A program made the translations under genes and the position numbers. Positions 1 to 44,318 of a stretch of 44,318 bases of DNA are shown in pieces. How positions within the stretch are numbered: position 1 is the first letter of the stretch; every line of letters starts with the position of its first letter. This stretch comes from a virus. The stretch covers positions 1 to 44,318 of IMG/VR virus record IMGVR_UViG_3300034158_000052; one strand, 5' to 3'. The notes beneath the pieces are model-generated. The model saw only the letters and a list, made by a program, of their open reading frames with translations, was not told where the DNA came from and ran no database searches.

Positions 1-123
1 GTAGCGTTTGCCGGTGCGCCCGACCAGGAGGTAAGGCAGGTCCGGCGCGACCTGCACGTCGAACGATCGGCGGCTCATGCCGAGATAGGCGGCCGCGGCG
101 TCGGGTTGGTAGAGGCGTTGCAT
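1..123 (-). CDS. Excisionase-like HTH protein, N-terminal part (continues at 44318)
   Basis: These 41 codons start at the ATG at 123 and run off the left end. Continued from base 44295 downward after removing the 23-bp terminal overlap, they give one 117-residue protein. The first 56 or so residues have the pattern of AlpA/Xis-type helix-turn-helix proteins: an N-terminal YQPDAAAAYLGMSRRSF recognition region, then LLVGRTGKRY and DARDLDAWAD. Such proteins bend DNA at attachment sites or regulate integrases. Its place directly upstream of the integrase supports a recombination directionality role, which is inferred. No strong ribosome binding site is visible before the ATG. Confidence 0.7.
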   Translation of the reverse strand, partial: MQRLYQPDAAAAYLGMSRRSFDVQVAPDLPYLLVGRTGKRY

Positions 124-220: not shown

Positions 221-997
221 TCAAGCAGCCTGTTCTCCCTTCAATAAATCGACGATTCGGCTATACCACTTGATCTGTTTCACGGGCGTTCCGTCGCCGT
301 GCTTCTTGCCCGTGTCCAACGCCTCGCCGAGCTTGGCTCCGTCCTCGGTCATCTCGTATTGCTTCCGGTTCTTGTGATCGCGGAAACTCAAGACGAGTCC
401 CTTTTCTTCAAGCATCAAATTTACCTTCTGACCAGACAGGCCAAGCCGTTCGCCGATGTCGGTTGCAGTCAACAGCGCGTCGCGCTCCTTGGCGATCAGG
501 TGCGTTGCGCCTAGGTTGCCGAGCACATCCGTTCCGGTCGTCTTGTAGGTCGCCTGATTGGCTGACAGCAGGGCTTGGTTTCCATCAAAAACCAGCTTGG
601 CAATCGACAGGTTCGAGCGGAATAGTCGGTTAGCATCAATCAGCGGTCGGACTTCGCCAGTTGGTTTCGCCTGATAGCCGCCTGTCTTGCGAACCGTCGG
701 CAAGATCTCCTCGAAAACAAGCTTCTCGAACTCTTGCGCGGTCGGGAGTTGGGAGTTGGCCATCATCCGGTATAGGTCAGGCTCGCGGATGACGCGGGCT
801 TCTTGGTTGCGCCCAAGGCTGTCGACAATGGGGTAGCGTTCCGCGACCCCACGGCAATGCGTTGAAATGGCGTCGTTGGTGTTGGCATAGCCAAGCGCGG
901 CTGCGACATCGCGCGCGACGAACAACGGCTCTCCGTTGTCATCGGCCAGGACGCGAACAGAATGGTTCTCGAACGAAAACGGGATGATATTGCTCAT
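221..997 (-). CDS. BRO-N phage antirepressor with C-terminal KilAC-like domain
   Basis: This 258-residue protein has a Bro-N domain at about residues 5-110 (IPFSFENHSVRVL, LFVARDVAAALGY, EFEKLVFEEILPTVRKTGGY). A C-terminal region at about 165-250 (LLTATDIGERLGLSGQKVN, RKQYEMTEDGAKLGEAL) resembles the KilAC-type domain of phage antirepressors. Proteins of this plan inactivate or compete with the prophage repressor and promote induction. The gene overlaps the upstream small gene by an ATGA, so the two are translationally coupled. Expression is probably held down by the C4-like antisense RNA upstream at 1424-1497. That control is inferred from complementarity, not shown. Confidence 0.85.
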   Translation of the reverse strand: MSNIIPFSFENHSVRVLADDNGEPLFVARDVAAALGYANTNDAISTHCRGVAERYPIVDSLGRNQEARVIREPDLYRMMANSQLPTAQEFEKLVFEEILPTVRKTGGYQAKPTGEVRPLIDANRLFRSNLSIAKLVFDGNQALLSANQATYKTTGTDVLGNLGATHLIAKERDALLTATDIGERLGLSGQKVNLMLEEKGLVLSFRDHKNRKQYEMTEDGAKLGEALDTGKKHGDGTPVKQIKWYSRIVDLLKGEQAA

Positions 998-1275
998 GAT
1001 CTGGCATCCTGATGGGCGCGCTCGGTCAGCATCTTGGCCTGTTCAAGCAGACCTTCGATGCACCAGATGACGTTCATCACATCAACGTGGTGTAGCGAGA
1101 AGCCGTCCTTGATGCTGCCGCCATCGGCGGACAGCAGGAGCAGCACAGAGGATGCGCGGCTCAACGTGCAGTTGAGCGCGTCAACGGGGAACTCGGGGAG
1201 CTTGCCGGGCGGCAAGACGAACAGGTCTTCAGGCGTACCGGGAGAAACGCCAGGCGTGCAGGTGCATTTGGACAT
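994..1275 (-). CDS. Small protein in the C4-antirepressor operon (icd-like position)
   Basis: The 93-residue product starts MSKCTCTPG and ends four bases into the antirepressor gene (ATGA overlap). In P1/P7 the C4 RNA is followed by icd (orfX) and then ant, so this gene holds the icd position, although I see no clear sequence match to Icd. The C-terminal half (ALNCTLSRASSVLLLLSADGG then a helix ending LLEQAKMLTE) loosely recalls small phage proteins of the DUF3077 kind. The reading frame stays open upstream to 1533 through the RNA region, giving an Ash-like conceptual extension (HTPFYGWAGQGAARLAG). I take that part as RNA, not protein. Function unknown. Confidence 0.6.
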   Translation of the reverse strand: MSKCTCTPGVSPGTPEDLFVLPPGKLPEFPVDALNCTLSRASSVLLLLSADGGSIKDGFSLHHVDVMNVIWCIEGLLEQAKMLTERAHQDARS

Positions 1276-1423: not shown

Positions 1424-1497
1424 AAAAAAGCCGCGATGGTGCGGCCTTGTGCCGCTCTTCTCAGGAGACCAATCCTGGCCTCCCAGTGCGGGGAGGC
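1424..1497 (-). ncRNA. C4-type antisense RNA 1
   Basis: About 74 nt would be made from the promoter at 1504-1533. The RNA begins with a hairpin (CCTCCC, six-base loop, GGGAGG). It then has the pairing segment 1475-1454 (GGATTGGTCT, spacer, GAAGAGC) and ends in a hairpin GCCGC/GCGGC (1445-1430) followed by six T (1429-1424), an intrinsic terminator. P1/P7 C4 RNA is of similar size and represses synthesis of the antirepressor by pairing with the downstream leader. The match here is architectural plus complementarity. I could not run a covariance model. Confidence 0.7.
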
Positions 1498-1503
1498 GCA
1501 TTT

Positions 1504-1533
1504 AACGTATCTCATCCTTTGCGCCCTCGTCAA
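1504..1533 (-). promoter_or_regulatory. Promoter of C4-like RNA 1
   Basis: On the minus strand TTGACG (1533-1528) and TACGTT (1509-1504) are separated by 18 bp, giving a predicted start near 1497. The second C4-like locus has a promoter of the same spacing (TTGACA, 18 bp, TATGCT), which supports both calls. The -10 element is weak by consensus. Confidence 0.5.
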
Positions 1534-8635: not shown

Positions 8636-8971
8636 TTATCTTGGCACGGATCGTGACTGTAATATTAGTTCACGTATTGCACCTTTGACATTCGCGGGGA
8701 GTTGATTATAGGCGTCCGCTACCTCGAAAGTTTCTTCGTCCCAATCCTCAACACGCTCATCTCCAAACGCAAGCCATGCGCGCGGGACTTCGAGCGCATG
8801 TGCTAATTTCCCTAGCTGCTTCGGCATTCTGGTTGTTCCCGACTCTGTTTTGGCAATGACATCGCGACTCACGCCAGAATGTAGCGCTAAATCCTCCTGG
8901 CGCCAATTCTTGTGCTCTCGCGCCCATTTTAAACGCGCCCCCAGTGTTTTTAACTTCGGAAATGTAGACAT
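8636..8971 (-). CDS. Phage repressor, short XRE-type HTH protein
   Basis: The 111-residue protein has an XRE helix-turn-helix at residues 8-66 (LGARLKWAREHKNWRQEDLA, HSGVSRDVIAKTESG) and a helical C-terminus, with no LexA-like peptidase domain. It lies between the two operator clusters, on the opposite strand to the Cro-like gene, which identifies it as the lysogeny repressor. The ATG at 8971 has GGGAG seven bases upstream. The frame to 9103 would run through the operators. Lacking the self-cleaving domain, it should not respond to RecA directly. Induction through the antirepressors is therefore plausible, as an inference. Confidence 0.85.
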   Translation of the reverse strand: MSTFPKLKTLGARLKWAREHKNWRQEDLALHSGVSRDVIAKTESGTTRMPKQLGKLAHALEVPRAWLAFGDERVEDWDEETFEVADAYNQLPANVKGAIRELILQSRSVPR

Positions 8972-9023
8972 TTTGTTCTCCCATGGCGGGAATCGCTCCA
9001 GTGCTGCTTTTCGGCTATTGGTC

Positions 9024-9104
9024 AGCATATCGTTGCGCCCTTTTCGGCACATGTCATGAGAAGAATCGGCACATCGCGCTTGCGTTATGTGCCGTTTCGA
9101 CACA
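9024..9104. promoter_or_regulatory. Right operators with divergent repressor and Cro promoters
   Basis: A palindrome TGTGCCGTTTCGACACA lies at 9088-9104 and CGGCACA half-sites lie at 9045-9051 and 9067-9073, matching the left operators. On the minus strand TATGCT (9029-9024) can be the -10 of the repressor gene, with the operator half-site over its -35 region. On the plus strand the palindrome ends just before AACTAT (9105-9110), a poor but correctly placed -10. That would start the Cro-like mRNA at or next to its ATG. Confidence 0.6.
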
Positions 9105-9114
9105 AACTATCTAC

Positions 9115-9357
9115 ATGAACACATCACAAGCAGCACTCGCTCGGGCGATCACGGTCGCGGGCGGGCCAACCGCCTTAGCACGCAGCCTGAGCAAACTTCT
9201 TCAAAAAGAGGTCAGGCATTACGCCGTCTGCAAGTGGGGACGGGCGCGCATCCCAGCCGAATATGTGCTCGCCATCGAGCAGGCCACAGGCGTCTCTCGC
9301 CACGACCTCCGCCCGGACATCTTCGGACCGGCCCCCGCCACCCGCGAGGCCGCCTGA
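9115..9357 (+). CDS. Cro-like regulator of the YdaS family
   Basis: The product has 80 residues. The ALARAITVAGGPTALARSL start, WGRARIPAEYVLAIEQATGVSRHDLRPDIFG region and length match YdaS/Cro-like HTH proteins encoded opposite phage repressors. It should bind the shared operators and shut off the repressor or early promoters. No Shine-Dalgarno sequence precedes the ATG, and the putative -10 ends five bases before it, so the message may be leaderless. It is the first gene of the rightward operon and overlaps the next start by one base (TGATGA). Confidence 0.85.
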   Translation: MNTSQAALARAITVAGGPTALARSLSKLLQKEVRHYAVCKWGRARIPAEYVLAIEQATGVSRHDLRPDIFGPAPATREAA

Positions 9358-41159: not shown

Positions 41160-42209
41160 TCAGACCACCGGCGTCAATTCAAAGCGGGGGTCGCTCGCCG
41201 CCAACTGCCGCTGCAGCGCGATCCAATCCGGTCGGGGCGGGATGGCCGTCTTCATCCGCGCCTTCCAAACCCGGTTGATCTGCGGCGTCCAGGGCAGCCC
41301 CCCGCGCAGATGATCCCGGAAGAAGGACGCGCGGATCTCGCTGACCAAGGTCAACAGGTGACCGGCCCAATCCTTGATCGCGGCGATCAGGAGCAGACAG
41401 GGCTCGAAGTCGCTCGCCGGCAGATCAGCAATGCGCTGGATGTGGAAAGCGACATGCAGGGTGTTGTAGACCTGCTGGGCGTCCTGGTCGTGGAAGATCC
41501 AGCCGGACAGGCAGCCATGGACCGCGCGGGAGATGTCCTGAACCTGCTGGGGGCTGATGCGGTCGTCGTCGGCAGGGTCAGTGACCGGGACCGCTGGCGC
41601 GCACCGCAGGTCCAGGCTGGTGACGTAGACGATGGCCTCGGACAACTGCGTCCGGGGCAGTTGGCTGTACTTGGCGATCCTGAACTTGCGGTGCAGGCGG
41701 CTCCAGGCCTCGGCCAGGGCCTTACCCTGAAGCTCGGGCGTGAGGTGCGCGACCTTGTGATGAACGATCTCGCTCAGGGTTTGCTGCTCGGAGGGGATGA
41801 GCGTCTCTTGATGGGACGCGGGCACCACCTGACCAGCGGCTTCGAGGGCCTTGCGCTCCATGGCGATGAAGTAGCGCCGCGCCTCCCGGCCCTTGGCGTT
41901 GTTCTCGACCATGGACAGCTCTTTGGCCATGTCGAGGCCGAGGAGGTAGTCCTTGCTCTTGCGGTCTCCGCCGCGGCCTTTTTTGATTTCCGAATTTTCG
42001 GAAATCAATGCAAAGTCTTGATCCTGAACAAATCCGTATTTCTCGACGCGGGCAGTGAACCAATCAGCGAATTTCGTTCCAGCTTCAAGAAAAACGTGAA
42101 GATCGGTTGCCTTGCAAACGTGCGCAGGCACGCCGCCAATCTGGCCAAGGAAAACGGGGACGAGTGCGGTTTCGCCGGAAACGGGCGCGATGGGGATCAG
42201 GCTGTTCAT
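41160..42209 (-). CDS. AntA-type phage antirepressor (second antirepressor)
   Basis: The product has 349 residues from the ATG at 42209 (MNSLIPIAPVSGETALVPVF). The AntA domain, about residues 30-115, contains DLHVFLEAGTKFADWFTARV, KYGFVQDQDFALIS and GRGGDRKSKDYLLGLDMAKEL, then ARRYFIAMER. The rest (GKALAEAWSRLHRKFRIAKY, later helices) resembles C-terminal regions of P22-type antirepressors. It would inactivate a repressor on induction. The gene has its own promoter and a C4-like RNA upstream, and no icd-like gene in between. Its pairing sequences differ from those of the BRO locus. Confidence 0.85.
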   Translation of the reverse strand: MNSLIPIAPVSGETALVPVFLGQIGGVPAHVCKATDLHVFLEAGTKFADWFTARVEKYGFVQDQDFALISENSEIKKGRGGDRKSKDYLLGLDMAKELSMVENNAKGREARRYFIAMERKALEAAGQVVPASHQETLIPSEQQTLSEIVHHKVAHLTPELQGKALAEAWSRLHRKFRIAKYSQLPRTQLSEAIVYVTSLDLRCAPAVPVTDPADDDRISPQQVQDISRAVHGCLSGWIFHDQDAQQVYNTLHVAFHIQRIADLPASDFEPCLLLIAAIKDWAGHLLTLVSEIRASFFRDHLRGGLPWTPQINRVWKARMKTAIPPRPDWIALQRQLAASDPRFELTPVV

Positions 42210-42217
42210 GCTGCTTA

Positions 42218-42280
42218 CCTGTATTGCTGTCACGCAAACCACAAAGACTGTGGCGGCCGGGAGGGTGACACGGCTACAGA
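42218..42280 (-). promoter_or_regulatory. Target leader for C4-like RNA 2
   Basis: On the minus strand TCTGTA (42280-42275), a four-base spacer, and TGTCAC (42270-42265) are the complements of TACAGA and GTGACA in the upstream short RNA. A further copy GTGACAGCAATACAGG (42233-42218) lies next to the start codon and overlaps the AGGT that could serve as ribosome binding site. The target can therefore pair with the C4-like RNA or fold onto the start region and hide that site. Confidence 0.65.
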
Positions 42281-42353
42281 ACCGCTCGGTTATTCCCGGT
42301 TTCCCGGTATTTTATTAACCGAACTCCCGGCCAGCGAAAAGCTGAATCGGGGC

Positions 42354-42414
42354 AAAAAAATACCGCATGGCTATCGGGTGCGGATCCGTCTGTAGGAGGT
42401 TGTCACGCCTCTTG
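42354..42414 (-). ncRNA. C4-type antisense RNA 2
   Basis: About 61 nt would be made from the promoter at 42421-42450. It carries GTGACA, six bases, TACAGA (42406-42389), the complement of the downstream leader. It ends in a hairpin CCGCA/TGCGG (42383-42363) followed by TATTTTTTT (to 42354). The architecture equals that of the RNA at 1424-1497 while the pairing bases differ. The loop of the terminal hairpin is 11 bases, so the terminator is weaker than in the first locus. Confidence 0.6.
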
Positions 42415-42420
42415 CCGATC

Positions 42421-42450
42421 AGCATAGGCCCGACCGGCGGCGGGTGTCAA
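42421..42450 (-). promoter_or_regulatory. Promoter of C4-like RNA 2 and the AntA antirepressor
   Basis: On the minus strand TTGACA (42450-42445) is a perfect -35. TATGCT (42426-42421) is a fair -10 with an 18-bp spacer. The predicted start is near 42414. It lies just past the stop codon of the secreted-protein gene, so the antirepressor does not depend on that gene's transcript. Confidence 0.7.
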
Positions 42451-44221: not shown

Positions 44222-44318
44222 GTGATGGCCCTCCAGGCGCCCGCGGGGTGGATCTTAGTCTGTCGATCGGCCCAGGCGTCAAGGTCGCGGGCGTCGTAGC
44301 GTTTGCCGGTGCGCCCGA
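44065..44318 (-). CDS. Excisionase-like HTH protein, C-terminal part (starts at 123)
   Basis: Continuation of the gene at 1-123. After the shared 23 bases it reads DARDLDAWADRQTKIHPAG and stays open to a TAG at 44067-44065. The last 50 or so codons overlap the integrase gene in another frame and are rich in Ser, Thr, Arg and Gln. They are probably a by-product of the overlap and not a conserved domain. The unbroken frame is the main evidence that the molecule is circular. Confidence 0.65.
   Translation of the reverse strand, partial: GRTGKRYDARDLDAWADRQTKIHPAGAWRAITCDNHHDRPDSSNAAGSGTSTKQSASARTRSNFENQLAQARSKTPSPSSTAG
44296..44318 (+). repeat. Terminal direct repeat identical to bases 1-23
   Basis: GTAGCGTTTGCCGGTGCGCC plus CGA occurs at both ends of the window. 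It lies inside the xis-like reading frame and not next to a tRNA or att sequence, so it looks like the overlap left by assembly of a circular or circularly permuted molecule. Confidence 0.9.

Follow-up and report, generated by a model that had tools for sequence, protein, structure and literature searches.

In the record of phage P1, the immI locus is annotated as the series promoter, a1, b1, C4, a2, b2, icd and ant1, with a 4-nt overlap between icd and ant1. RNase P is the enzyme that processes the precursors of C4. Both the c4 antisense RNA and c4-a1b1 were listed by Weinberg 2010 (available part of PMC2864571). The accessible sections of the 2016 paper on Gifsy-1 (PMC4825925) describe two related arrangements. 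In P4, the CI RNA pairs with seqA and seqC, resulting in termination, and the IsrK RNA of Gifsy-1 is likened to P4 seqA. In Gifsy-1, IsrK acting in trans increased the translation of anrP about 140-fold, and a stable RNA of approximately 80 nt was processed from the read-through transcript. When STnc1160, the RNA downstream of IsrK, was co-expressed, the IsrK-mediated arrest became stronger, not weaker, and the authors' account of activation was refolding in cis (same sections of PMC4825925). As the co-expression result counts against it, the model in which such a leader serves as a decoy is unsettled even in Gifsy-1.

The window analyzed here, the whole 44,318-nt stretch of the virus record IMGVR_UViG_3300034158_000052, was scanned with all Rfam models, and C4 and isrK covariance matches were detected in tandem on the minus strand, which counts for a switch of this kind. 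The C4 match (RF01695) covered 1323-1404 with 60.7 bits against a cut-off of 45 (E 2e-9; fold z -4.2). The segment was identified as C4 both by this score and by the complementarity of its loop and linker to two sequence pairs, one on the upstream side and one where the next open reading frame begins. The segment directly 5' of C4, at 1424-1497, matched isrK (RF01394) with 44.7 bits, which is below the cut-off of 50 although the E-value was 1.5e-6, and is described here as isrK-like only. The c4-a1b1 model (RF03163), which does match P1, Gifsy-1 and P4, gave no match at the leader, its best score in the window being 7.1 bits elsewhere, and this absence counts against the switch, as does the sub-threshold isrK score.

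A first-pass annotation had described on this strand a promoter, a 5' hairpin, a two-block pairing segment, a terminator hairpin with six T, a leader with the complementary blocks, a small gene in the icd position and an antirepressor. All of these sequence elements were found in that order. The promoter-like pair TTGACG-18-TACGTT, read from the sequence at 1504-1533 (TTGACG at 1533-1528 and TACGTT at 1509-1504), was weak, as TACGTT agreed with TATAAT at 3 of 6 positions, a point against the switch, and the pair was absent from the output of the promoter scan. The 5' hairpin of the leader, also read from the sequence, lay at approximately 1499-1478. The target block a1 (GGATTGGTCT) was located at 1466-1475, its pairing being exact over just 7 nt (TTGGTCT at 1472-1466) with one mismatch beyond, and the target block b1 (GAAGAGC) at 1454-1460. 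Between b1 and C4, a hairpin at 1448-1427 led into six T at 1429-1424; this terminator-like element (1424-1448) folded with a z of -4.6, although the terminator scan reported none there. The complements GCTCTTC (b', 1362-1356) and AGACCAACC (a', 1351-1343) were present as well, but lay inside the C4 RNA as its hairpin-loop and linker blocks, not in a plain leader. Directly before the small gene we found a second copy of the target pair overlooked by the first-pass annotation, consisting of a2 (TTGGTCT, 1321-1315) and b2 (AAGAGCA, 1288-1282). The block b2 ended 6 nt 5' of the ATG and contained only a weak Shine-Dalgarno sequence (AAGAG), which counts against the switch. Upstream of C4, the two collinear blocks gave a match score of 9, attained by 2 of 20,000 Markov sequences, and the extra copy downstream gave a score of 10, attained by none of 20,000; both matches were thus above chance.

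The small ORF in the icd position (93 aa, 994-1275, minus strand) and the antirepressor gene that follows (258 aa, 221-997, minus strand) overlapped by 4 nt. By the order of the elements and this overlap the locus belongs to the P1-type c4-icd-ant modules with two-block antisense pairing, as had been proposed. The 93-aa ORF had no relative in phages, viral contigs, PHROGs, Pfam or PADLOC, another point against the switch. In the antirepressor, the expected Bro-N domain was detected (PF02498, E 1.3e-19) along with similarity to PHROG 130, anti-repressor Ant (E 1.7e-48), but the KilAC domain also expected was not found in the domain search. A CI-like HTH protein encoded at 8636-9103 on the minus strand counts for the switch. 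A YdaS-type HTH protein at 8983-9357 on the plus strand was divergent from and overlapped the ORF of this CI-like repressor.

C4 loci of other viruses were collected by a pattern scan of viral contigs, which returned at least 120 stretches and favors copies near the pattern. The 122 matches listed were reduced to 93 by an outer-stem rule, to 78 with a distinct loop and linker, and to 74 by dropping L014, L057, L073 and L095, whose records had no C4 match; 73 loci had enough flanking sequence. Among the listed C4-pattern records, C4 was detected in 73 of 77 and isrK in 70 of 77 at E <= 1e-3. In a swap test, the own loop and linker of each locus were compared with swapped partners, the criterion being a better fit than 95% of the swaps. 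The fit of the upstream pair was 9.59 with the own partner and 5.01 with swapped ones (63 of 73 listed loci beating 95%), and that of the downstream pair was 9.47 and 5.46, respectively (61 of 73). The C4 loop sequences varied between phages, and all three places in the listed loci still matched one another. At strong matches in these loci, the gap from a to b had a median of 7 upstream versus 23 downstream. A run of at least five T preceded C4 in 49 of the 73 listed loci when compared to 7.7 expected, and b2 mostly ended 4-12 nt before the start codon where a leader ORF was recognized. The 59 ORFs downstream of the listed C4 loci, picked crudely, included 11 with Bro-N, eight with Rha, five with KilA-N, three with P22_AR_N, two with ORF6N and one with AntA. 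A Bro-N antirepressor behind C4 is thus not rare.

We consider it very likely that the locus is a C4-type antisense switch composed of leader, terminator, C4, a2/b2, small ORF and Bro-N antirepressor, and that the second module described below is alike. One minus-strand transcript from approximately 1500 would contain the isrK-like leader with a1/b1, the terminator, C4, a2/b2, the small ORF and the antirepressor, and C4 would be processed from transcripts reading past the terminator. Its loop and linker would pair with a2/b2 and mask the region where the small ORF starts, so that the small ORF and, through translational coupling across the 4-nt overlap, the antirepressor would be blocked and the prophage kept quiet. 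Once produced, the antirepressors would be expected to act on the phage's own repressor. As the leader bears the same target pair as a2/b2, it is probably a decoy of C4 by analogy with IsrK in Gifsy-1, and the terminated leader RNA would relieve the block by titrating C4. C4 may also bind the nascent leader and favor termination, as in P4. What the sequences themselves show is the set of elements with their order and complementarity, the latter covarying in many phages.

Attenuation of the P4 kind alone, in which the main effect of C4 would be termination at 1424-1448 through the nascent a1/b1 leader and a2/b2 would be of minor importance, is conceivable but rather unlikely. The terminator-like hairpin and T run after a1/b1 in the window, the T run at the same place in 49 of the 73 listed loci and the termination caused by pairing of CI RNA with seqA and seqC in P4 (accessible sections of PMC4825925) agree with it, whereas the similar retention of a2/b2 and a1/b1 (61 versus 63 of the 73 listed loci) and the position of b2, mostly ending 4-12 nt ahead of the start codon where a leader ORF is recognized, argue against it.

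The first-pass annotation had instead taken the RNA of 74 nt at 1424-1497, within 1424-1533, as C4 itself, repressing the leader downstream. Its size is about right for C4 and the following segment contains its complement, but the Rfam check proposed along with this assignment matched the C4 model to the locus at 1323-1404, while 1424-1497 was matched by isrK. In P1, the equivalent of 1424-1497 is annotated as the target sites a1 and b1, and C4 is the next RNA. Moreover, the blocks in 1424-1497 are copies of a2/b2 and hence have the polarity of a target, making pairing with the ORF start region impossible. We regard this assignment as wrong and the corresponding model as highly improbable; the first-pass interpretation was right about the type of switch and mistaken about the segment. 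The possibility that the likenesses among a1/b1, C4 and a2/b2 are functionless direct and inverted duplications has nothing but the repeats themselves in its favor and is contradicted by the swap test, since the loops vary by phage and yet the three places match together, so that we give it practically no credence.

The anatomy of the C4-type switch recurs in the window, also on the minus strand, with sRNA-Xcc1 replacing C4 ahead of an AntA/AntB antirepressor. This module starts with a promoter-like pair TTGACA-18-TATGCT (42421-42450, 10 of 12 matches) and an upstream target pair GTGACA + CTACAGA (42389-42406), identified by sequence and pairing tests. A possible terminator, CCGCA...TGCGG followed by seven T (42354-42383), was read from the sequence; its fold was weak and the terminator scan did not report it. 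Downstream of sRNA-Xcc1 (42247-42332), the second target pair GTGACA + TACAG (42219-42233) lay 9 nt before the ATG of the second antirepressor (41160-42209), which carries AntA/AntB (PF08346, E 2.9e-22) and ORF6C (PF10552, E 2.1e-7) domains. The RNA is a member of sRNA-Xcc1 (RF02221) just above the cut-off (54.7 versus 53 bits; fold z -3.7), and RF02221 alone was reported at 42247-42332, with no C4 covariance match there. Its fold showed the layout of C4, in which an outer stem encloses two hairpins, with a free linker ahead of the closing strand, the loop block being TCTGTAG (42280-42274) and the linker block TGTCAC (42270-42265). By its anatomy the RNA looks like one that works as C4 does, although its family assignment is sRNA-Xcc1, not C4. 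The target matches were modest, attained singly by 262 and 1,701 of 20,000 random sequences and jointly by 23 of 20,000. The duplex energies of sRNA-Xcc1 with its own targets (-17.8 and -16.1 kcal/mol) were close to those with the C4 targets (-16.9 and -13.6 kcal/mol), indicating weak specificity in energy, and the specificity of C4 was clearer (-27.6 and -20.7 kcal/mol with its own versus -12.6 and -16.0 kcal/mol with the foreign targets).

sRNA-Xcc1 was first described in PMC2996969, and has been reported in integron cassettes with symE (PMC12444791) and in Xylella vesicles (PMC12189769); it is further covered by Rfam 15 (PMC11701678) and by PMC8876359, PMC11932112, PMC8780938 and PMC12370729. 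In E. coli EDL933, 108,363 reads of C4 and 40,293 reads of sRNA-Xcc1 (89 nt) were detected, both RNAs being abundant with low ribosome coverage (PMC5331693). The available parts of these papers contain no link between sRNA-Xcc1 and antirepressors, and an earlier notice of it is possible.

The sRNA-Xcc1 loci of other phages were investigated in the same manner. The pattern scan returned at least 120 stretches, again favoring copies near the pattern, and the test set comprised 83 unique matches with the outer stem, in addition to the window and L004. In this set, which still contains chance pattern matches, the own antisense segment beat 95% of the swaps for the upstream pair in 53 of 83 listed loci and for the downstream pair in 45 of 85, when approximately 4 were expected in each case. 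These are the less biased figures. The 51-member subset (50 records confirmed by RF02221 and the window) was picked after inspection of the covariation table, which biases its values of 38 upstream and 34 downstream pairs upward. In the same subset, an ATG with a long ORF was located within 15 nt after b2 in 45 members, compared with 140 of 2,000 control points, and a T run preceded sRNA-Xcc1 in 43 when 12.4 were expected.

Among the genes behind the listed sRNA-Xcc1 loci, 57 of 73 were scanned for domains, the other 16 being dropped as they resembled chance pattern matches or duplicates. The 57 proteins gave KilA-N (14), P22_AR_C (14), Rha (10), Bro-N (9), P22_AR_N (6), AntA (6), ORF6N (5) and ORF6C (2), counts that may overlap within one protein. 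None of these antirepressor-type families was found among the best 25 of 36 families of 51 control ORFs (51 of 52 scanned, with the window's own left out). In Escherichia phage Rac-SA53 (L269), sRNA-Xcc1 scored 78.1 bits before an annotated ant gene, with the target pairs TCGAAAC + TTACAAG upstream and TTCGAA + TACAAG before the ATG, and phage PhiR5_2 carries two copies before two annotated antirepressors. Searches of two sRNA-Xcc1 loci against E. coli genomes and of a third locus against phages gave no match, and a search of plasmids with the consensus gave four weak records. On account of the same anatomy, the covariation and the antirepressor domains behind it, sRNA-Xcc1 looks like a second family of the C4 type.

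Six loci with relatives of the Bro-N antirepressor were also scanned. One, L005, carried isrK and C4, another, L004, carried sRNA-Xcc1, and the remaining four (L003, L006, L007 and L141) had no isrK, C4 or sRNA-Xcc1 match nearby and may have other leader RNAs. As the relatives stand behind either RNA, C4 and sRNA-Xcc1 seem to be interchangeable. L005/L139 is a Desulfogranum genome, outside the gammaproteobacteria, with an isrK-C4 module before its Bro-N antirepressor.

Two C4 matches each were observed in G017, G024, G027, G029, G032, G038, G044, G055, G059 and G066, and up to five sRNA-Xcc1 matches in other viral records (G087 and G123), suggesting that one phage can carry several brakes. The combination of C4 and sRNA-Xcc1 was rejected as a common pattern, as the window was the only one with both among the 50 C4 records searched. 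The phage studied here, whose best terminase matches were less than 47% identical, appears to hold two potential awakening genes off, each by its own small antisense RNA. The first 23 bases of the window (1-23) were repeated at 44296-44318, and a reading frame truncated by base 1, which resembled AlpA on visual inspection, continued there. Possibly the record is circular or delimited by att repeats, in which case both antirepressor modules would stand on the same strand within a few kilobases.

The C4 module is, with high confidence, one more example of a known switch. The second module suggests for the orphan family sRNA-Xcc1 a function that is concrete and open to experiment, and one that would explain why the family is mobile, as an alternative to the proposals of its copies as virulence or cross-kingdom RNAs. 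If several brakes share one phage, the induction of its prophage could come under the control of separate RNA circuits whose loop-target partnerships are readable from the sequence.

Compared with P1 immI, the window has the same leader with a1/b1, C4, a2/b2, small ORF and antirepressor with the 4-nt overlap. It differs in that the antirepressor shows Bro-N only, that the small ORF is without a relative, and that the isrK score of the leader is higher (44.7 versus 35.1 bits at the a1/b1 leader of P1). The C4 model scored 68.8 bits in P1 and 74.9 bits in P4 and also matched Gifsy-1, and the isrK model scored 60.8 bits in P4 and 79.3 bits in Gifsy-1. By this sequence comparison, 1424-1497 corresponds to the a1/b1 leader of P1, seqA of P4 and IsrK of Gifsy-1. 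The isrK-orf45-anrP locus of Gifsy-1 likewise has isrK, C4 and then an antirepressor-like gene, but the start of orf45 lies close to the 5' end of that C4 segment, according to position arithmetic on the available text of PMC4825925 and the covariance matches, whereas the best placed ORF start in the window is downstream of C4 and a2/b2. The seqA-CI RNA-seqC region of P4 shares the isrK-like and C4-like RNAs, but there, as stated in the same available text (PMC4825925), termination controls replication genes and no antirepressor is involved. In the accessible literature, sRNA-Xcc1 is integron-borne, virulence-linked or vesicle-borne, its role being unproven, or is found in front of symE; in contrast, the window's member and those of many phages precede antirepressors and have two target pairs. 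The comparison of sequences supports sRNA-Xcc1 well as a C4-like antisense class, and it is likely a second class of this kind, one that brakes phage antirepressors as a mobile element equipped with an upstream decoy and a start-site target of its own, and that phages could combine with C4 or carry in several copies as separate brakes on separate antirepressors.
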